Below are positions 50,354-60,289 of a stretch of 64,000 bases of DNA, one piece after another; positions within the stretch are counted from its first letter, which is position 1, and the number at the start of each line of letters is the position of its first letter. The DNA is from Billgrantia antri. GTDB lineage: Bacteria; Pseudomonadota; Gammaproteobacteria; Pseudomonadales; Halomonadaceae. Both the position numbers and the translations under genes were made by a program. The notes beneath the pieces are model-generated. The model was given only the letters and a program-made list of their open reading frames with translations, did no database searches and was not told the DNA's origin. The stretch spans positions 248,001-312,000 of the forward strand of contig NZ_JAHYCA010000003.1 of NCBI RefSeq assembly GCF_019430905.1. The letters are read 5' to 3'.

Positions 50354-51037
50354 CTAGCCGTTCGCTTCCTGATGCAGCAACAGCTCGACTCGACGATTGG
50401 CGGCACGCCCCTCAGGGGTTTCGTTGCTGCCCAATGGGCGCGTCTCGGCATAGCCCACCGCCCGCAGCCGCTCGCCCGGTACGCCCAGTTCGGCCAGATA
50501 GCGCAATACGGCGATGGCCCGTCCTGAGGAGAGCTCCCAGTTCGACGGGAAGCGGAAACTGGCAATGGGGATGCTGTCGGTGTGCCCTTCCACGGAGATG
50601 TCCCCCTCGAATGACACGAGCACTTCGCGCAACCGGCCCAGCACTTCACGTCCCTGCCCCGTGAGAATGGCCTGGCCGCTGTCGAACAGCAGGTTGTCGT
50701 CGATACGCAGGGTAATGCCTTGCTGATCCTCCAGCACGCTCACCCCTTCGATCTCGAGCCCGGGAAAGCGCGGCTCGAGGCCATCGTGGCGCGGCTTGAG
50801 TCCCGCCCCGGCCACCATGCGAGCGGCAGCTTCGGCCTGAGGCGAAACTACGGCGGACACTTCGCCGCCATGCTGGCTACCCTTTATCGCCAGGCCGTTG
50901 CCGGCCAGGGAGAGCAGCAGCACGAACAATGTGATGAGCAGCGTCAGCACATCCAGATAGCTCACTAGCCAGCCTTCGCCCTCTGCCGCATCGACGGCGG
51001 GAGGCTGCAACATGTCTCGCGTGCTGCGATCAAGCAT
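50354..51037 (-). CDS. motB: Flagellar stator protein MotB (short form)
   Basis: 227 residues. A single N-terminal helix with the proton/sodium-binding aspartate D29 (LVSYLDVLTLLITLFVLLL). The OmpA-like peptidoglycan domain follows (about 105-220: LLFDSGQAIL, VEGHTDSIPI, NWELSSGRAIAVLRYL, NRRVEL). It is shorter than E. coli MotB (308), mainly in the linker and C-terminus. Overlaps motA by 8 bases. Confidence 0.92.
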   Translation of the reverse strand: MLDRSTRDMLQPPAVDAAEGEGWLVSYLDVLTLLITLFVLLLSLAGNGLAIKGSQHGGEVSAVVSPQAEAAARMVAGAGLKPRHDGLEPRFPGLEIEGVSVLEDQQGITLRIDDNLLFDSGQAILTGQGREVLGRLREVLVSFEGDISVEGHTDSIPIASFRFPSNWELSSGRAIAVLRYLAELGVPGERLRAVGYAETRPLGSNETPEGRAANRRVELLLHQEANG

Positions 51038-51848
51038 TCTGTGCCTGTCCGTCTGGGTCGTCGCGCTTGGCCACTTCCGGGTCGCGAATCTCGTCGTGAT
51101 AGTTGACGACGAAGGAGTGCAGGGTTTCTTCGATGAACGAGGGCAGACGACGCTTGGTAATCAGTGAAATGCCTTCGAGCACCATGTTCATGGCGATCAG
51201 GCGCTCCTCGGTACGCCGCTCTAGCTTCACGGCGATGGGCTTGAACACGAGGTTGGCCAGCAGGATGCCGTAGAAGGTCGTGAGCAGGGCCACGGCCATC
51301 CGCGGGCCGATGACGTGCAAGTCGCCCGACTCCATCACTTCGAGCATGTTGACCAGCCCGACCAGGGTGCCAATCATGCCGAAGGCCGGCGCATAGGTGG
51401 CCATGGTGCGAAAGATCTGGGCTTCGGCGTGCTCGCGCGCCTTGAGCCGGGCGATGCGCCAGCGCAGCAGGTCGAAGATCTCCTCCTCCTTGGTGTTGGC
51501 GATGACCAGTTGGATGCCGGTGCGCAGGAAGGGATTGCATGCCTTCTCCAGGGCCGCCTCGACTGCCCGCACGTCGCCCTTGAACCACAGCCGCGAGATG
51601 TCCACCAGCTCCTTGATGTCGTCGCGCATGTAGGTGTTCTCCCGGCGGAACACCAGGCCCACCAGGCGCACCACTCGCAGTACCTCCCGCAGCGGATAGC
51701 TGATGAAGGTGGCCGCCATGGTCCCTGCCAGCACGATGGCGAGACCCGGCAGGTTGATGAAGCTCTGCGGTGACTCGGCGGTAAAGAACAGCACGCTGAC
51801 CAGTAGAACGATGCTGGCGAACATGCCGATGATGGTAGACGGGTTCAT
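51030..51848 (-). CDS. motA: Flagellar stator protein MotA (PomA-like)
   Basis: 272 residues, four membrane helices (about 5-25, 30-50, 150-170, 180-202). TYAPAFGMIGTLVGLVNML and GILLANLVFKPIAVKL are typical of the MotA/PomA channel. With MotB it forms the torque-generating stator. Whether H+ or Na+ is used cannot be read with certainty, although the sequence looks closer to PomA. A sigma-28-type promoter lies upstream. Confidence 0.94.
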   Translation of the reverse strand: MNPSTIIGMFASIVLLVSVLFFTAESPQSFINLPGLAIVLAGTMAATFISYPLREVLRVVRLVGLVFRRENTYMRDDIKELVDISRLWFKGDVRAVEAALEKACNPFLRTGIQLVIANTKEEEIFDLLRWRIARLKAREHAEAQIFRTMATYAPAFGMIGTLVGLVNMLEVMESGDLHVIGPRMAVALLTTFYGILLANLVFKPIAVKLERRTEERLIAMNMVLEGISLITKRRLPSFIEETLHSFVVNYHDEIRDPEVAKRDDPDGQAQNA

Positions 51849-51997: not shown

Positions 51998-52159
51998 GAC
52001 AGTCATGAGATCCTTGTCGGCAACAGGTCCTGCGGTCAGGCCTGTCATGGAGGATGGTGCAAGCCACAGGCCTGCGCCTTGCCAGCGAGCGATTCCGGCG
52101 GCGACCAAGCCGCGCCGGGGAACCATCCGTTGGCCAACCGCGGCCAAACAGGAGTAGTC

Positions 52160-52936
52160 ATGCCACGATGCGCCGAGAAGGAAGGACATTGCGAACGCTG
52201 CGAGGGGCCGCTGCCGTTCGCGTTCACCATGGCCTTCCAACCGATCGTCGACCTCGCCTCGGCCCGCATCGCCACTTACGAAGCACTGGTGAGAGGGCCG
52301 GCCGGCGAGTCGGCAGCCAGCATTCTGGCCCAGGTCACCCCCCGGCTGCTCTATCGCTTCGACCAGGCGTGTCGCATCCGTGCCATCGAACTTGCCAGTC
52401 GTCTCGGCATGCGCGAGACCCTGTCGATCAACTTTCTGCCCAACGCAGTTTACGAACCGATGGCCTGTATCCAGGCAACGCTGGCGATTTCCGAGCAGGT
52501 CGGCTGGCCGCTTCAGCGGCTGATATTCGAGGTGACCGAAAGCGAGAGGGTGCAGGACCAACAGCATCTGCGCAGCATCATCGAGGCCTACCGCAAAACG
52601 GGCTTCCTGACCGCCCTGGATGACTTCGGCAACGGTTTCGCCAACCTCGACCTGCTGGTCGAGCTGCACCCCGACCGACTCAAGATCGATCGCACCCTGG
52701 TGATGAACTGCGACAGCGACACCCGCCGTCAAGCCATCCTGCGTGCCATCGTCAACCTCGCCGGGGAGCTGGATATCGGCCTGGTAGCCGAAGGCGTCGA
52801 GACGCAGGCGGAAGCGTTGTGGCTGGCCCGCAGCGGCATTTTCCAGCAGCAAGGCTTCTTCTATGCCCGCCCCGGCCTCGAAAGCCTGACCCATGGCCTC
52901 GAGCCGACGCTCGTGGCATTGCAACGGGCTGTCTAG
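52160..52936 (+). CDS. EAL-domain c-di-GMP phosphodiesterase
   Basis: 258 residues from ATG 52160 (GGAG site at 52151). A cysteine-rich N-terminus (C4, C11, C14) is followed directly by a single EAL domain: YEALVRG, NFLPN, FEVTES, LDDFGNGFANLD, LKIDR, AEGVET, and the final QQGFFYARP. The metal and catalytic residues are all present, so it should be active. It has no sensor domain besides the cysteine segment. With a FliA promoter it parallels E. coli PdeH (YhjH), the class III enzyme that keeps c-di-GMP low in swimming cells. Confidence 0.93.
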   Translation: MPRCAEKEGHCERCEGPLPFAFTMAFQPIVDLASARIATYEALVRGPAGESAASILAQVTPRLLYRFDQACRIRAIELASRLGMRETLSINFLPNAVYEPMACIQATLAISEQVGWPLQRLIFEVTESERVQDQQHLRSIIEAYRKTGFLTALDDFGNGFANLDLLVELHPDRLKIDRTLVMNCDSDTRRQAILRAIVNLAGELDIGLVAEGVETQAEALWLARSGIFQQQGFFYARPGLESLTHGLEPTLVALQRAV

Positions 52937-53016
52937 CACAAACGATTCGATCATGAGCCTATCAGCCACCATTGAGAATGTCCGAGTGCATCACACTCAG
53001 CACGGAGCCAAGCAGC

Positions 53017-54219
53017 ATGCCTGAGCAAAGGGACACCGATCCTTTCACCGTCGCTCTTCACCCGATCCACGACGCCAGCCATCATCACGTTGCGGATCGT
53101 CTGGTCTATACCCGGCATACCGACACCGAAGCCGAGGACGTCATGGCCGCCACGGCCAGGGCGCTGGCCAGTGCCGTCTACGAACTCGGCGACGGCGGCC
53201 TGCTGGGCGACAGGACGCTGTTCGTCGACCTGCCCCTGGAGTGGCTGGAGCGCCCCGAACTGCTGCCTACGCCGGCACCACGCCTGGCACTTGGCATTGC
53301 CGAGACGCACACGGTCGATGCCGAGCTGCTCGTACGCCTGGATGATATCCGTGAGCGCGGCTACCGGGTCATCGTCCCGTCACGCCTGTTCAAGCAGGAC
53401 CCGGAAGCGATGCTCGAGCGCTGCGACATCATCGTGCTCTCCTCACCTCAGGATCTCGCCGACGAGACCCTGGAGCGACTTCCCGGGCGCAACATCAAGC
53501 TGCTGGTCGAAAATCTCGACAGCCGCGACGAGCTGGAGCGCTACCAGGCGATGGGCTGCGACTACTATCATGGCCGCTACCTCGCCAAACCCAGCTTCAT
53601 TGCCTCGGCCCCACGTGGTCGTCACGGCAATCGTGCCGCGCAGATCCGTCTGATCCGCGCCCTCTACGAGGACAACCACGACCTCAACCGCCTTCACGAG
53701 CTGGTCGTACAGGTGCCCCATCTGCACGTGGCCATCCTGCGTCGGGCCAACTCGAGCTACTTCCACCGTGGCGGCAAGGAAGTCGATCTGCACCGCGCGG
53801 TACAGCTGCTGGGCCTGATCGAGCTTCGCCGGCTGATCCTGACCCTGACGCTCGCCAGCCTGCAGCCCACATCGCGTATCGTACTGCGCATGGCGCTGAT
53901 CCGCGCCTTCATGTGCCGCAACCTGGCGGCCCCCTTTCCTGCCCTCGACCCCGAGGATGCCTTCACCACCGGCCTGTTCTCGATGATGGATGCGCTGCTG
54001 GAGGAGGACCGCAACACTCTGCTCGAGCACTTGCCGCTGGGGCAGCCGATCATCGACGCCCTGCGACACCGGGCCGGCCCCCTGGGCGCCGTGCTGACAC
54101 TGTGCGAGAACCACGAGCGTCAGGTCGAGGAAGCCATCGACGACGTACCAGCCGACCGGCTCCATGCTTGCTACATGAACGCCCTGGGAAGCACCAAGGC
54201 GCTGATGGAAAATCTTTAA
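53017..54219 (+). CDS. Degenerate EAL-HDOD protein (CdgJ/YuxH-like)
   Basis: 400 residues from ATG 53017 (GGAG at 53004); starts at 52972 or 52978 are possible. Residues 10-195 keep an EAL-like fold, but the EAL motif is replaced (DRLVYTR) and catalytic acidic residues are missing. Residues 195-400 form an HDOD domain (ILRRANSSYF, LHRAVQLLGLIELRRLI). Such proteins act as signalling scaffolds; CdgJ-type members in Vibrio affect motility. 80 bp after the EAL phosphodiesterase, so likely the same FliA-driven transcript. Its end overlaps the convergent fliA stop by 4 bases. Confidence 0.88.
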   Translation: MPEQRDTDPFTVALHPIHDASHHHVADRLVYTRHTDTEAEDVMAATARALASAVYELGDGGLLGDRTLFVDLPLEWLERPELLPTPAPRLALGIAETHTVDAELLVRLDDIRERGYRVIVPSRLFKQDPEAMLERCDIIVLSSPQDLADETLERLPGRNIKLLVENLDSRDELERYQAMGCDYYHGRYLAKPSFIASAPRGRHGNRAAQIRLIRALYEDNHDLNRLHELVVQVPHLHVAILRRANSSYFHRGGKEVDLHRAVQLLGLIELRRLILTLTLASLQPTSRIVLRMALIRAFMCRNLAAPFPALDPEDAFTTGLFSMMDALLEEDRNTLLEHLPLGQPIIDALRHRAGPLGAVLTLCENHERQVEEAIDDVPADRLHACYMNALGSTKALMENL

Positions 54220-54920
54220 CCGTGAACAGTCAGGCGCGCTCGGAGCCGGCTCACCGCCTGACTGTGCAGTTGGCATACCCGCGACTCGGTCACGCCGAGT
54301 ACGACGCCGATTTCCTTGAGGTTGAGCTCCTCCTGGTAGTACAGCGCCATCAGCAGCTTCTCGCGCTCGGGAAGCGCTTCGATCCCCTCGGCCAGTTGCT
54401 GGCGCTTCTCTTCGTCGATGAGCATGCGGTAGGGCGTGTCGATCGATGCATCTTCGATCCCGGGCTCGATGCCCTCGGCCATCAACGCCTCGAAGGGCAG
54501 CAGGTGCCCGCTGTTGGTATCGCTGAGCAACTGGCGATACTCCTCCAGGCCCATGTCGAGTTCGGCGGCGATCTCGGTTTCCTCGGCCGGCCGGCCCAGC
54601 GTCTGCTCCAGACGCCGTACCGCCTCGTCGACGGCTCGGGCGTTGCGTCTCACGCTGCGCGGCAGCCAGTCCCGACTGCGCAACTCATCGAGCATGGCGC
54701 CGCGAATACGCTGGCTGGCGAAAGTGGCAAAGCTGGCTCCCTGGCCCGCATCGAAGCGCCCCATGGCCTCGAGCAGCCCCACCGTGCCGGCCTGGATCAG
54801 GTCGTCGAGCTCGATGCTCGACGGTAGCCGAACCTGCATGGAGAGCGCCTGACGCCTAACCAACGGCAGGTACTCCTCCAGCAGGTCTGCCTGTTCGATC
54901 TTGCCTCGTGCTGTGTACAT
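54216..54920 (-). CDS. fliA: Flagellar sigma factor FliA (sigma-28)
   Basis: 234 residues. Region 2 IELDDLIQAGTVGLLEAMGRFD and FATFASQRIRGAMLDELRSRDW are diagnostic, and the region 4 helix-turn-helix is LKEIGVVLGVTESRVCQLHSQAVSRLR. It directs late flagellar genes; three matching promoters are visible in this window. Likely the last gene of the flhB operon, 54 bp after flhE. Confidence 0.97.
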   Translation of the reverse strand: MYTARGKIEQADLLEEYLPLVRRQALSMQVRLPSSIELDDLIQAGTVGLLEAMGRFDAGQGASFATFASQRIRGAMLDELRSRDWLPRSVRRNARAVDEAVRRLEQTLGRPAEETEIAAELDMGLEEYRQLLSDTNSGHLLPFEALMAEGIEPGIEDASIDTPYRMLIDEEKRQQLAEGIEALPEREKLLMALYYQEELNLKEIGVVLGVTESRVCQLHSQAVSRLRARLTVHG

Positions 54921-54974: not shown

Positions 54975-55394
54975 TCAGGGACGTTGCAGGGATTGGTGGT
55001 TGACGATCACCTGCAGCCCCTGCAGGGTCGCGGCGCGCTGCCGGCGATCCTGCAGTGAAAACTGAAAATGCAGTGGCGTGTCGGCAGGCAGGCCCGCCAA
55101 GTCATCGGTCTGGCCACGCGACGCCGGCAAGCGTGTGCAGCCTCCTGGATGACACAACCAGGCATTCACCACGCTGCCGGCCGGCGGCTGGAACTGCCAA
55201 CCGACCCGTCCCATGACCTGACCACTGGCCAGCTCGGGCGACGGTGGCAGCAACACAGCGGACGACATCGGCCGATCGGCCGTGACGACCGGCAGCGAGG
55301 GAGCAGTGGCCACCCAACTGCCACTGGCATACGCGCCTCCCATCCACCCACAGAGGACCACTGCCGCCAACCAGCGATGCGCTCGAACCATCAT
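54975..55394 (-). CDS. flhE: Flagellar protein FlhE
   Basis: 139 residues with a signal peptide (about 1-23, ending AYA). LPPSPELASGQVMGRVGWQF, then two cysteines in WLCHPGGCTRL, and a C-terminal VIVNHQ agree with periplasmic FlhE, which in Salmonella guards the export gate against proton leak. FlhE is mostly known from flhBAE operons of enterics; here it follows the flhG-like gene with a 4-base overlap (ATGA). Confidence 0.8.
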   Translation of the reverse strand: MMVRAHRWLAAVVLCGWMGGAYASGSWVATAPSLPVVTADRPMSSAVLLPPSPELASGQVMGRVGWQFQPPAGSVVNAWLCHPGGCTRLPASRGQTDDLAGLPADTPLHFQFSLQDRRQRAATLQGLQVIVNHQSLQRP

Positions 55395-55981
55395 CTCGCC
55401 AATACCAACAATTCGATGCCGAAATAAGCCTCCGCGACATACTGTAGATTGGTCAATAGACCCTGGCGCCCCACTCCTGGCGGATGCACGGCGATCAAAC
55501 GCCGCGGCCCACCCTGCTCGTCGATCTGCTTGAGCAGACGGTAGCCACGACGAAAGGCTTCGAGATCGTCATCTACCCACAGCGCCCAGTGCGACTGCTG
55601 GGTCGCCAGCACTGGCAGATGAGGGCTGCTGATGGGCAGCGCCACGATGCGCCATGAGTGTGGATTCCCCACCCAACGTCGTCCCTCGCTGGCCCAGCTT
55701 TGCAGCAGCTCGGTAACTCTGGCGGTGTGCCGTTCGGCGGTTCCCGGCAGGCCCAGCACCATCAGCGTCACCGTACTGCCCGTGTCAGGGACTCTGTTGC
55801 CAGTGTCAGTGGCTCTATGTGTCGATACGCGAGCGGTACTTGCCGGTTTGGCCGGCGCCCTTGCCGTGCCGTTGCCCCCGGCGGCTGCCAACTCGACCAG
55901 CGTCTCGGCCACATGTGCCGGGCAATCCTGTGCCTCCCCGTTCGCCCATTGGCGCAGCCCAGCGGCCTGGTCCCATCCCAT
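55391..55981 (-). CDS. Degenerate FlhG/FleN-like protein: DQAxxLR motif kept, P-loop lost
   Basis: 196 residues. It lies exactly where flhG (fleN) normally follows flhF, starting immediately after the flhF stop. D4-Q5-A6-A7-G8-L9-R10 is the N-terminal activator motif of FlhG that stimulates the FlhF GTPase. The KGGVGKT ATP-binding loop is absent; in its place is a low-complexity linker (about 30-70). The last 80 residues (DLEAFRRGYRLLKQIDEQGG...LTNLQYVAEAYFGIEL) resemble the C-terminal part of the MinD-like fold (dAYaliK...vvN...fl.i.L). So it looks like an FlhG that lost ATPase function but may still activate FlhF. Alternative: an unrelated protein with a chance motif. Confidence 0.7.
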   Translation of the reverse strand: MGWDQAAGLRQWANGEAQDCPAHVAETLVELAAAGGNGTARAPAKPASTARVSTHRATDTGNRVPDTGSTVTLMVLGLPGTAERHTARVTELLQSWASEGRRWVGNPHSWRIVALPISSPHLPVLATQQSHWALWVDDDLEAFRRGYRLLKQIDEQGGPRRLIAVHPPGVGRQGLLTNLQYVAEAYFGIELLVLAR

Positions 55982-58204
55982 CTAGCCTGTCTCCCTTTCA
56001 CCGAGACCCAGGTGGCGAATGGCATCGCGCACCATGAAGAGTTGTACCAACGACTCGAGCAGCGCGACATCGCGCCGCCTGCGACGCCCCCCGCCGAGCC
56101 CCAGCAATTCCGCTCGCAGATCCATCGCCGCTACGTCCTCGGCAAGATCCAGGTGCGCTGCCACCGTGGCCAGGCCACTGGCCATCAGCAGGCGCAGGTC
56201 GGCACGCAGCTCCCCCAATTCGGCTGGATCCAGGCGCTGCCACGCACTTCGGGCGAGCTGCGGCAGTACGTCGCCCTGCAGCAGGGTCAACAAGAGCGGC
56301 TGGGGCTCGCGCTTCAGCCGCAACGGCACTATCCAGTAGCGTTTCGCCAGCACCTTGCCACTCTCTTCATCACGCACCTCACCGAACCAGGCCTGCGCGT
56401 CGAGGCTCTGTTGGTCGCGCCGGGCTCCCTTGAACACCACGCCGACGGGAAGCGTAGCGAGACCGAGGCGTGCTGCAGCACCGCGGAATCGGCAGCGCAC
56501 GTCGCCAACGGCGTCGCCTATGCCACTGAGCGACGCCAGGGTACACCGCTCGCCGCCAAATTCGACACGCTGGCTGCCGCGTACCTGACTGCACCAGCTC
56601 AGTCCACCCTTCTGTAGCCAGTCTCCCGCGTCACTGTCGGGCAGCCCATTCAACAGATGCACGCCGACCCCGTATTGCTCCAGCATCTCTGCCAGGCGTG
56701 CCTGCTGGCCCGCCACTTGGCGATGCTGCAGCAACGGCAGCGCCAGCCAGGTACCCTCGGGACTGAGCGCCACGTCCGGCATCGACCAGCTCTCGCCCGG
56801 TACGCGACGGCGTTCGCTCCACAGCATGCCGAGTGCCTGATCACCCTGGGGGTAATCGGCCAACAGTCGATCCAGGCGCTGCTGCTGGACGGAGGCTGGC
56901 ATTCCCAACAGGTTCCACACCTCTTCGAAGCGCTTGAAGCCGGGCAGACGCTGGCGTAGCGCCTGCAGTACTGAAGCCAGGCGGCGGCCTTGTCCCAACA
57001 GATTGCCTGAACTTCGCACGGCCGCTTCCGGCATCTGACGTGCCGGAGACCTGGCGGACGGCGTGCGATCGGCAAGGGCATCGGCGATCAAGGCTTCGGG
57101 TTCGGCGAGCGCCATGTCCTCCGGAACGCGTTGGCCATGGGAGACAAACAGCAGACGCAAACCGTGACGCATGACGATATCGAGCACAGGCGCCAACCGC
57201 CCTGCCTCGTCCTGCTTGGTGATGATGCAATCGGTGAGCTCGCCACCGGCGGCCTGAGCGGCCTGCCGATAACGCACCACGACCTCCTCGAGGGTCTCGG
57301 GCTGGCTGGCAGCGTTGAGCAGCAGTACCAGGCGCACGGGCGAATCGCCGCCGTGCAAGTGGCTGACCTGCTCGATCACGCGGTGATCGCGCTGGCTCAT
57401 GCCGACCGTGTCGATGATGATCCAGGACTTGCCTTTCATGCGCCCCAGCAGCTCCGACACCGGCTGGTCGGCGTTGAGGGCGTACATCGGCACGTCGAGC
57501 AGGCGTGAGTAGATTCGCAACTGCTCGTGGGCACCGATACGGAAGCTGTCGGTCGTCACCAGTGCCACCGGTCGGGTGCCGTGACGCATGACATAGCGCG
57601 CTGCCAGCTTGGCCGTAGTCGTGGTCTTGCCTACCCCGGTGGGCCCGATCAGTGCCACGATCCCGGTGCGATCCATGAAGGCAGCCTCATCGTCCAGGCC
57701 ACCGAGTCGCTTGACCAGCTGTCGCGCCAGCCATGCCAAGGCACGCTCGTCGACTGCCCCGGCCAGCGCCAGCTCCTCGGGCAGTGCCGCGACAACCTCG
57801 TCGGCCAGCGCCTGGCTGAAACCGGTCTCCAGCATCGTGCCGATGAGCTGCTCACCAAGCGTACGCGTCGAGTCAGACGGGTCACGCTCGCGTGACAGCA
57901 GGGCACGCATGTCCCGCATCTCTTCGAGCAGCCTTGCACTCATGGCCTCGAAGGCCTGGGCGGGATCGGGGCTTGCCGGGGTGGCAGGCGCCGCCGCTGG
58001 CGGGCGACTCGGCTCCACCGAACGAGGTGCGGATTCGCCGACATTGGCTTCGCCCTGCGTGGCCGCCGACTCGGCCATCGCCAGAATCTCGACGCCATGC
58101 TCGGTCTGCCGGTTGGCCAGGATCAGGGCCTCGTCACCCAGGGCCGCGCGTACCTGACGCATGGCCTCACGACTGTTGCCCCCCACGAAACGCATGACAC
58201 TCAT
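55982..58204 (-). CDS. flhF: Flagellar GTPase FlhF with a long C-terminal extension
   Basis: 740 residues, against the usual 380-500. N-terminus MSVMRFVGGNSREAMRQVR is the FlhF B-domain start. The SRP-type NG domain (about 175-375) has GPTGVGKTTTTAKLA, TTDSFRIGAHEQL, IIIDTVGMSQRD and ITKQDEAG. The next ~365 residues (376-740) match nothing I recognise; they are mostly helical with some beta segments and end in a helical stretch. FlhF sets flagellar position and number. GGGAGGT precedes the ATG inside the end of flhA, so it is coupled. Confidence 0.93.
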   Translation of the reverse strand: MSVMRFVGGNSREAMRQVRAALGDEALILANRQTEHGVEILAMAESAATQGEANVGESAPRSVEPSRPPAAAPATPASPDPAQAFEAMSARLLEEMRDMRALLSRERDPSDSTRTLGEQLIGTMLETGFSQALADEVVAALPEELALAGAVDERALAWLARQLVKRLGGLDDEAAFMDRTGIVALIGPTGVGKTTTTAKLAARYVMRHGTRPVALVTTDSFRIGAHEQLRIYSRLLDVPMYALNADQPVSELLGRMKGKSWIIIDTVGMSQRDHRVIEQVSHLHGGDSPVRLVLLLNAASQPETLEEVVVRYRQAAQAAGGELTDCIITKQDEAGRLAPVLDIVMRHGLRLLFVSHGQRVPEDMALAEPEALIADALADRTPSARSPARQMPEAAVRSSGNLLGQGRRLASVLQALRQRLPGFKRFEEVWNLLGMPASVQQQRLDRLLADYPQGDQALGMLWSERRRVPGESWSMPDVALSPEGTWLALPLLQHRQVAGQQARLAEMLEQYGVGVHLLNGLPDSDAGDWLQKGGLSWCSQVRGSQRVEFGGERCTLASLSGIGDAVGDVRCRFRGAAARLGLATLPVGVVFKGARRDQQSLDAQAWFGEVRDEESGKVLAKRYWIVPLRLKREPQPLLLTLLQGDVLPQLARSAWQRLDPAELGELRADLRLLMASGLATVAAHLDLAEDVAAMDLRAELLGLGGGRRRRRDVALLESLVQLFMVRDAIRHLGLGERETG

Positions 58205-58207
58205 TGC

Positions 58208-60289
58208 TTATCGACCTCCCACCAGCGTCACGATGCGCAGCGTCCGATCATCAGGTATTTCCGCCTGCGACATGACCACCAGGTGGCGCATGCGCCGACG
58301 CAGGAAACGAGCCAGTAGCGGACGCAGGCTATGCTGCACCACCAGCACCGGTGGCTCGCCGCTCGCCTCATGCCGCTCGACGGCTTGCTCGGTCTGGCTC
58401 ATCAGTGTCTCGGCCAATCCTGGCTCGAGCGCCCCATTGCCGTTCATGGCTTGCATCAGGACCTGCTCGAGTTGGGCATCCAGGCCGATCACGTTCAGCG
58501 TATCGCGTCCAGGGAACCAGTGCTGAGTAATCGCGCGTCCCAGCATGATCCGAACCAGTGCTGTCAGCTCGTTGGCATCCTGTTGCTGCGGCGCATATTC
58601 TGCCAGGGTATCGAGGATGGTACGCATGTCGCGAATGGAGACATCTTCATCGAGCAGGTTCTGCAGGATGCGCTGGAGTACGGTCAGGCTGATGGCTTTG
58701 GGCACCACGTCCTCGACCAGCGACTTCTGCTCCTCGCCGAGCTTGTCGAGCAGCTTCTGGACCTCCTGGCGTCCCAGCATTTCGGCCGCGTGGCGATGCA
58801 GCAGGTGGTTGAGGTGCGTGGCGATCACGGTGCCGGCGTCGACTACGGTATAGCCGTAGACTTGGGCATGCTCGCGCTGTCCTCCATCGATCCACACCGC
58901 CGGCAGGCCGAAGGCCGGATCGGACGTCGGCGTGCCCTGCAACTGGCCAGTGACCTGCCCCGGATCGATGGCGAGCCACTGGCCCGGGAAGGCCTCGGCA
59001 CGGCCAATCTCGGCGCCTTTCAGCGTGATCACATAGGTGTTGGCACCCAGTTCCAGATTGTCGCGTATATGCACCACGGCGGGCAGAAAACCGACTTCCT
59101 GGGCGAACTTCTTGCGCACGCTCTTGATGCGGCCCAACAGTTCGCCATCCTGGCGCTGGTCGACCAGCGGAATCAGGCGATGACCGACCTCGAGCCCCAG
59201 GGTATCCACCAGTTGGACGTCCGACCAGCTGGCCTCGGGCGTTTCGGGCATCGGCGGCGGCTCGGCCTTGAGTTCCTCCGCCACCAGGCGCTGCTCCTGC
59301 TGTCGCGTTAGCATCCAGGCCAGGCCGGCCAAGAGTCCGGTGAAGATCAGAAACACCATGTTGGGCATGCCCGGCACCAGGCCAAGCAGTCCCATGACCA
59401 GTGCTGCCAACACCATGACTTGAGGATTGACGAACAGCTGGCCGATCATCTGCTGCCCGACGTCCTGCTCGGTATTGACGCGCGACACGGTCACGCCGGC
59501 GGCCGTGGAGATCACCAGTGCAGGGATCTGGGCGACCAGGCCGTCGCCGATGGTCATCAGGGTGTAGGTCCGGGCGGCATCGCCGAAGCCCATGTCGTGC
59601 TGGAGCATACCGATCAGCAGGCCGCCGATGACGTTGACCACCATGATCACCAGGCCGGCCATGGCATCGCCACGCACGAACTTGCTGGCACCGTCCATGG
59701 AGCCGTAGAAATCGGCCTCCTGGGCAACTTCGGCGCGACGCGTGCGAGCATCTTCTTCACCGATCAGGCCGGCGTTGAGGTCGGCATCGATAGCCATCTG
59801 CTTGCCCGGCATGGCATCGAGCATGAAGCGCGCGCCCACCTCGGCGATGCGCCCGGCCCCCTTGGTGATGACCATGAAGTTGATGATGACCAGGATCAGA
59901 AAGACCACCAGACCCACGGCGAAGTTGCCGCCGATGAGGAACTCACCGAAGGCCTCGATCACCTTGCCCGCCGAGTCACCGCCCTGGTGGCCTTCCATCA
60001 GGATCACCCGTGTGGAAGCGACGTTCAGCGATAGACGCAACAAGGTGGTGAACAACAGCACTGCAGGAAAGGCGGCAAAATCCAACGGCTTCTGGGTGAA
60101 CATGCTGACCAGCAGCACCATAACCGCCAGGGCGATATTGAAGGTGAACAGCAGGTCCAGCGCGAAAGGTGGCAGCGGCACGATCATCATGCCGAGGATC
60201 ATGATGATCAGGATCGGGCCGGCAAGCAGCTTCATGCGGACATCGCCCACCCAGTCACGTCGCCCCATGATCTGGCTGAGGGATTTCAT
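58208..60289 (-). CDS. flhA: Flagellar export gate protein FlhA
   Basis: 693 residues, normal size. N-terminal eight-helix domain with FAAFPAVLLFTTLLRLSLNVASTR and the FHIPEP-type cytosolic loop (FVRGDAMAGLVIMVVNVIGG), then the cytosolic nonameric-ring domain. It drives type III export of flagellar subunits. Its ATG overlaps the flhB stop (ATGA). Confidence 0.97.
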   Translation of the reverse strand: MKSLSQIMGRRDWVGDVRMKLLAGPILIIMILGMMIVPLPPFALDLLFTFNIALAVMVLLVSMFTQKPLDFAAFPAVLLFTTLLRLSLNVASTRVILMEGHQGGDSAGKVIEAFGEFLIGGNFAVGLVVFLILVIINFMVITKGAGRIAEVGARFMLDAMPGKQMAIDADLNAGLIGEEDARTRRAEVAQEADFYGSMDGASKFVRGDAMAGLVIMVVNVIGGLLIGMLQHDMGFGDAARTYTLMTIGDGLVAQIPALVISTAAGVTVSRVNTEQDVGQQMIGQLFVNPQVMVLAALVMGLLGLVPGMPNMVFLIFTGLLAGLAWMLTRQQEQRLVAEELKAEPPPMPETPEASWSDVQLVDTLGLEVGHRLIPLVDQRQDGELLGRIKSVRKKFAQEVGFLPAVVHIRDNLELGANTYVITLKGAEIGRAEAFPGQWLAIDPGQVTGQLQGTPTSDPAFGLPAVWIDGGQREHAQVYGYTVVDAGTVIATHLNHLLHRHAAEMLGRQEVQKLLDKLGEEQKSLVEDVVPKAISLTVLQRILQNLLDEDVSIRDMRTILDTLAEYAPQQQDANELTALVRIMLGRAITQHWFPGRDTLNVIGLDAQLEQVLMQAMNGNGALEPGLAETLMSQTEQAVERHEASGEPPVLVVQHSLRPLLARFLRRRMRHLVVMSQAEIPDDRTLRIVTLVGGR

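Follow-up and report, generated by a model that had tools for sequence, protein, structure and literature searches.

Flagellar place and number are set by a conserved GTPase–ATPase switch composed of FlhF and FlhG, in which an enhancer helix of FlhG stimulates FlhF via its glutamine, and FlhG itself forms ATP-dependent dimers and relies on a membrane-targeting sequence at its C-terminus (all as given in PMC12826062). The locus described here raises the question of what becomes of such a switch when the gene in the flhG slot has no ATPase site. It lies within a stretch of 64,000 nucleotides from Billgrantia antri (hereafter the window), in a genome of 4.39 Mb on 12 contigs, where a small protein that we term mini-FlhG was originally predicted to be an FlhG that has lost its ATPase and retained its FlhF-activating motif. 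The features of the locus, from flhA to fliA, are as follows.

58208..60289, minus strand: flhA (PF00771, E 3.9e-271)
55982..58204, minus strand: flhF, 740 aa, with conserved GTPase motifs G1–G5 (TIGR03499 FlhF, 220 bits, cut-off 174)
55985..57061, minus strand: C-terminal extension of FlhF, residues 382–740 (about 359 residues), without a Pfam match
55391..55981, minus strand: mini-FlhG, the gene in the flhG slot, 196 aa (open reading frame and homologues)
55952..55972, minus strand: DQAAGLR activator motif, residues 4–10, in the predicted helix 2–15
55772..55879, minus strand: linker, residues 35–70, variable and predicted to be disordered (pLDDT <50 at 35–68)
55394..55771, minus strand: degenerate, probably MinD-like C-terminal domain, residues 71–196, without a P-loop (residues 118–193 match FlhG profiles)
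54975..55394, minus strand: flhE (PF06366, E 5.6e-14)
54216..54920, minus strand: fliA, sigma-28 (PRK06986, 310 bits, cut-off 201)

The open reading frame of mini-FlhG runs on the minus strand from an ATG at 55981 to a stop codon at 55391–55393, and the plus-strand reading of 55391–55981 is not open. The flhG-slot position that had been claimed for it is confirmed, since flhF lies directly upstream with its last base (55982) adjoining the ATG and exceeds the TIGR03499 cut-off; the two genes abut in the window, and several relatives show a 4-base overlap between them. The 196-aa translation likewise contains DQAAGLR at residues 4–10 as predicted, and neither KGGxGK[ST] nor any other P-loop motif. 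The gene order in the window is flhA, flhF, mini-FlhG, flhE, fliA, and flhC is found approximately 13.5 kb past the window's end. A MotA/MotB-like stator pair is located near fliA (window 50354–51848, minus strand) and a second MotA/MotB pair past the window's end (L244:11426–13242), on the same stretch as flhC. Between the stator genes and fliA two plus-strand genes (window 52079–54219) encode EAL and HDOD/EAL-like domains, and perhaps link cyclic di-GMP to motility.

Mini-FlhG is not a peculiarity of a single genome. Homologues were detected at E <= 0.001 in 146 of 250 genomes of the family and in 11 of 24 genera, a count that includes at least one non-homologue (G036) and misses at least one divergent true member (G092), which was found via its flhF. 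A search with the profile of the mini-FlhG alignment across 369 genomes of the class matched four, namely the window's own, two of its family, and G482, where the motif of another slot protein was hit. The slot proteins of the Halomonadaceae range from 147 to 296 aa in length, and an alignment of 33 of them has a mean column identity of 29%, its invariant columns being D4, Q5, A6, G8, L9, R10, W110, W132, A183 and L191. All 42 Halomonadaceae genomes with a readable N-terminus carry DQAxGLR (43 slots were read, one of them cut by a contig end). Coding sequences were compared pairwise with those of ten named homologous loci, nine from Billgrantia and one from a Halomonas MAG. Across these ten comparisons the motif codons 4–10 accumulated 23 synonymous and 0 non-synonymous differences, residues 16–34 showed 43 and 68, and residues 71–196 showed 473 and 194, respectively; the corresponding 39 and 293 for the linker (35–70) derive from an unreliable alignment. 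Judged by these substitutions the motif is the most constrained part of mini-FlhG. The proposed reduction to a GTPase activator stands as far as the missing ATP site and the kept motif are concerned, but the C-terminal domain is also under selection (473 versus 194 differences), which argues that mini-FlhG is probably more than a bare activator.

The identity of that domain was addressed by profile comparison and structure prediction. Pfam and NCBIfam searches with mini-FlhG returned only chance-level VPDSG-CTERM matches below cut-off, none of the 33 aligned members gave a Pfam NTPase match above chance, and sequence searches of the PDB with mini-FlhG or its alignment yielded nothing useful. 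The profile of the 33 mini-FlhG was then compared by hhalign to that of 34 FlhG from the order of genome G398, hereafter the Cupriavidus-type order, and residues 118–193, a part that excludes the DQAxxLR motif, matched with a probability of 97.4% and E 1.2e-11. With the N-terminal 70 residues removed the match to the same FlhG profile retained E 6.2e-9 and a score of 60.1, whereas none of 60 column-shuffled profiles scored above 17.2 and the reversed profile reached 13.4. The MinD-like character that had been claimed for the last third of the protein is upheld only via the FlhG of the Cupriavidus-type order, and not by the direct comparison with Pseudomonadales FleN, which was not significant (probability 2.6%, E 0.017). 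In this alignment the matched part reaches residue 211 of the 271 of FlhG, and mini-FlhG has only three further residues; it stops right after the last core strand and thus lacks the part in which canonical FlhG has its membrane-targeting helix. An AlphaFold model based on 11 sequences (pLDDT 68, pTM 0.62) comprises an N-terminal helix (2–15), a low-confidence segment (35–68) and a five-stranded alternating alpha/beta domain. In Foldseek searches with this model no hit reached E <= 0.001; the ranking is headed by reductases and flavodoxin, and FleN/FlhG chains take six of ranks 30–50 with E >0.02, so that the model is compatible with FlhG and not diagnostic of it.

A search with one Pseudomonadales FleN query detected no full-length FlhG in the window's genome or in 19 other genomes of the family. 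All 20 contained weak matches only, the best at E 1.6e-17, whereas the query reached E 1.6e-174 in the control genome from which it was taken and 1.5e-128 in the other control genome. To judge from the resemblance of their opening residues, the MinD/ParA-group P-loop ATPases that were detected in the window's genome are presumably ParA/Soj, MinD and Mrp/ApbC proteins.

The co-occurrence of the slot gene with FlhF was examined in genomes of the family. All 24 same-genus genomes without a solid mini-FlhG match also lack an FlhF above the curated cut-off. FlhF is present in 10 of 17 further or control genomes of the family, and five of those ten (G024, G030, G078, G085 and G092) combine the slot gene with a long FlhF. 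G084 encodes a long FlhF (L131, flhF at 355–2565) with flhE directly after it and no slot gene. The G1–G5 motifs of FlhF are conserved in the window and in 14 other carriers of the slot gene, and G2 and G5 have drifted in the FlhF of G084, the single genome read with a long FlhF and no slot gene; it looks as if FlhF loosens after loss of its activator, in this one genome only. In G079, G081, G098 and G100 a short FlhF of 422–468 aa is followed by fliA with no flhG between them. These loci (L137–L140, in G081, G079, G100 and G098, respectively; four genera of the same family) carry a short FlhF of Pseudomonadales type, and apparently use FlhF without FlhG, as their genomes gave no FleN-like match that surpassed E 1e-17. 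In L118, a locus from another family, fliA also directly follows flhF.

The FlhG of the Cupriavidus-type order places the missing ATPase site in a wider context. We infer that this order is Burkholderiales, as the FlhG of G812, which belongs to the same order as G398, shares 76% identity with C. metallidurans FlhG, and the record lists Cupriavidus there. FlhF occurs in 254 of 399 genomes of the order, and 74 loci were read, comprising 72 slots from the 254 FlhF-bearing genomes and two Cupriavidus plasmid records; the 72 slots consist of the 30 highest-scoring loci, 40 hand-picked across families, and G398 and G612, with lower-scoring genomes unsampled. DQAxxLR is present in all 74 and KGGxGK[ST], by pattern count, in none. 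The P-loop GK[ST] has been kept in 18 and lost in 56. The same pattern count finds the classic GxxxxGK[ST] in 16, GK[ST] in another context in 4 (near-P-loops in L241 and L308, a lysine only at the signature position in L260 and L268), and no GK[ST] in 54. Counting by alignment columns gives both lysines in 1 locus, the P-loop lysine only in 31, the signature lysine only in 2 and neither in 40; at least 12 of the 31 P-loop-lysine rows represent an unrelated context, and the pattern count is preferred. The 18 loci with a P-loop GK[ST] may still bind nucleotide. Decay of the ATP site with retention of the motif is general across the loci read from this order. The ATPase-less FlhG of the window is real as predicted, but not an isolated case.

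Elsewhere in the class a canonical P-loop is found in 73 of 76 loci, 37 with DQAxxLR and 36 without, in a non-random set made up of 30 top-scoring FlhF matches, 30 loci chosen by similarity to Cupriavidus FlhG and 16 from Pseudomonadales. The other three are L118, with fliA directly after flhF as mentioned above, L128, which ends at a contig end, and L117, which was not resolved. The 13 readable Pseudomonadales loci all encode a FleN that has the P-loop and lacks DQAxxLR, in line with FleN as described in PMC12713375. One further case from the Cupriavidus-type order deserves mention, a 117-aa FlhG (L281, 1514–1864, genome G804) that consists of the motif fused to the C-terminal portion and is probably an independent mini-FlhG, the product of a separate reduction.

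A quick tree of FlhF NG domains (55 used of 101 extracted from 133 loci; L123 forms a very long branch) was used to trace the ancestry of the locus. Fifteen long Halomonadaceae FlhF, the window's included, group with the Cupriavidus-type order (SH-aLRT 99.9) and lie next to the Cupriavidus type (SH-aLRT 86), and four short Halomonadaceae FlhF fall with Pseudomonadales. The FlhF extensions of the window and Cupriavidus types are weakly collinear from end to end (320 columns aligned, E 9.4e-5, at a probability of only 58.7%), and a structure model of the extension is too poor to interpret (pLDDT 53). On the Cupriavidus megaplasmids the order is a long flhF (825 and 835 aa), flhG, fliA and flhE, the latter two identified by profile. 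The features of a betaproteobacterium-type cassette are present in the window's genome, namely the FlhF phylogeny, FlhC, and flhE beside flhF and fliA. Given this placement of FlhF and the occurrence of flhC and flhE, the flagellar cassette is probably betaproteobacterial in origin, with FlhG having shrunk further thereafter, and a betaproteobacterium-like origin is the simplest reading of the cassette. Enterobacterial flagella are likewise derived from betaproteobacteria (PMC12826062, section 12). Descent of mini-FlhG from Pseudomonadales FleN, that of the order to which the window belongs, was rejected, as FleN is without the motif in all 13 readable loci and the FlhF tree rejects a single clade of the long and short Halomonadaceae FlhF (p-AU 0.004).

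We consider it likely that the slot gene encodes a strongly reduced FlhG, a coupled putative GTPase activator of FlhF freed from ATP-dependent counting. An FlhG without its ATPase site and with the FlhF-activating motif is what had been proposed for this gene, and the FleN query, the profile homology of the C-terminal domain and the constraint on the motif support it. Since the ATPase feature fails, mini-FlhG is not to be filed as an FlhG ATPase; it is FlhG-derived and probably acts as the activator half of FlhG. According to this scheme mini-FlhG would have arrived with a betaproteobacterium-like cassette comprising an flhF of the long type, an flhG whose ATP site had decayed, fliA, flhE and flhC, and FlhG would have shrunk further within the Halomonadaceae. 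The helix of mini-FlhG would offer its glutamine to the FlhF dimer and thereby stimulate GTP hydrolysis. Because the canonical cycle of ATP-driven dimerisation and membrane binding could not run in mini-FlhG, the shut-off of FlhF would be set by the ratio of FlhF to mini-FlhG and by any partners of the C-terminal domain, and not by ATP-dependent counting. In monotrichous species FlhG/FleN restrains FlrA/FleQ (PMC12826062, section 8); as the genome described here has FlhC, such restraint may be unneeded.

The conservation of the C-terminal domain speaks against a bare activator, as a pure activator helix would presumably not need it. It is possible, though we think it doubtful, that this domain carries the main function, as an adaptor that binds a flagellar part or the FlhF extension, and that the helix serves as a tether to FlhF. 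Purifying selection on the domain, its near-invariant tryptophans and the joint occurrence of long FlhF extensions with the slot gene would all suit such an adaptor, but the domain is much shorter or diverged in G092 and in genus g31 (G078 and G117), where the motif is unchanged. That the gene is instead decaying, an FlhG on its way to loss and with no important present function, seems improbable: the lack of a slot gene in G084 and the varying lengths would be expected of it, but the motif is strictly conserved, synonymous differences are in excess, the gene persists across 11 of the 24 sampled genera of the family, and the 24 same-genus genomes that have lost it have all lost FlhF as well. 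Least credible of all is an unrelated small Rossmann-like protein that gained its DQAxxLR helix by convergence or fusion. The Foldseek results without an FlhG-specific signal and the absence of above-chance Pfam NTPase matches in the 33 members are what such a protein would give; against it stand the FlhG profile homology in the motif-free part, which passed the shuffled and reversed controls, the identity of the slot with that of flhG, and the separate 117-aa FlhG (L281) of another order, which consists of the motif and the C-terminal part.

Reading mini-FlhG as a strongly reduced FlhG, one may generalise with about even confidence that in two large groups (the Cupriavidus-like order and the flagellated Halomonadaceae with long FlhF) FlhG would no longer be an ATP-driven flagellar counter and would now be a GTPase activator of FlhF only. 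In that case the FlhF switch could operate with no ATPase cycle, and FlhG would be made up of two halves, the activator helix and the ATPase, each of them dropped independently in different lineages. Confidence in this generalisation and in the main reading is tempered by the P-loop lysine that 18 of the 74 loci keep and by the share of the order that was read. Among the open PubMed Central papers searched, none was found to describe mini-FlhG or a loss of the ATP site in the FlhG of the Cupriavidus-type order. Wide decay of the ATP site with strict retention of the activator helix amounts to a natural separation-of-function experiment, through which one can address whether ATP is needed for counting at all, which role FlhG plays in systems of the FlhDC type, and by which route lineages proceed towards the FlhF/FlhG-free state of enterobacteria.

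Compared to known systems, mini-FlhG shares with Bacillus FlhG/YlxH and with the FlhG of Shewanella and Vibrio its flhF neighbour and the DQAxxLR helix (described in PMC12826062). Canonical FlhG, in the same source, is a membrane-binding ATPase with ATP-dependent dimerisation, whereas mini-FlhG has no site for ATP and stops short of the membrane-targeting region. A close parallel is provided by the megaplasmid-borne FlhG of Cupriavidus metallidurans CH34 and C. campinensis (L198 and L199), which likewise follows a long flhF with fliA and flhE adjoining, and which combines DQAESLR with a decayed P-loop (ADAGAGATT and CEAGAGTTT). It differs from mini-FlhG in that it is MinD-like over its full length of about 270 aa, with matches to the MinD and ParA models retained, and in that fliA precedes flhE, whereas flhE precedes fliA in the window. 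The 117-aa FlhG of L281 resembles mini-FlhG in having the motif linked to the C-terminal portion with the P-loop region gone, but belongs to another order and has almost no linker. Pseudomonadales FleN occupies the same slot and bears a weak collinear resemblance in its C-terminal half, yet it is the exact inverse of mini-FlhG, with the P-loop kept and DQAxxLR absent.
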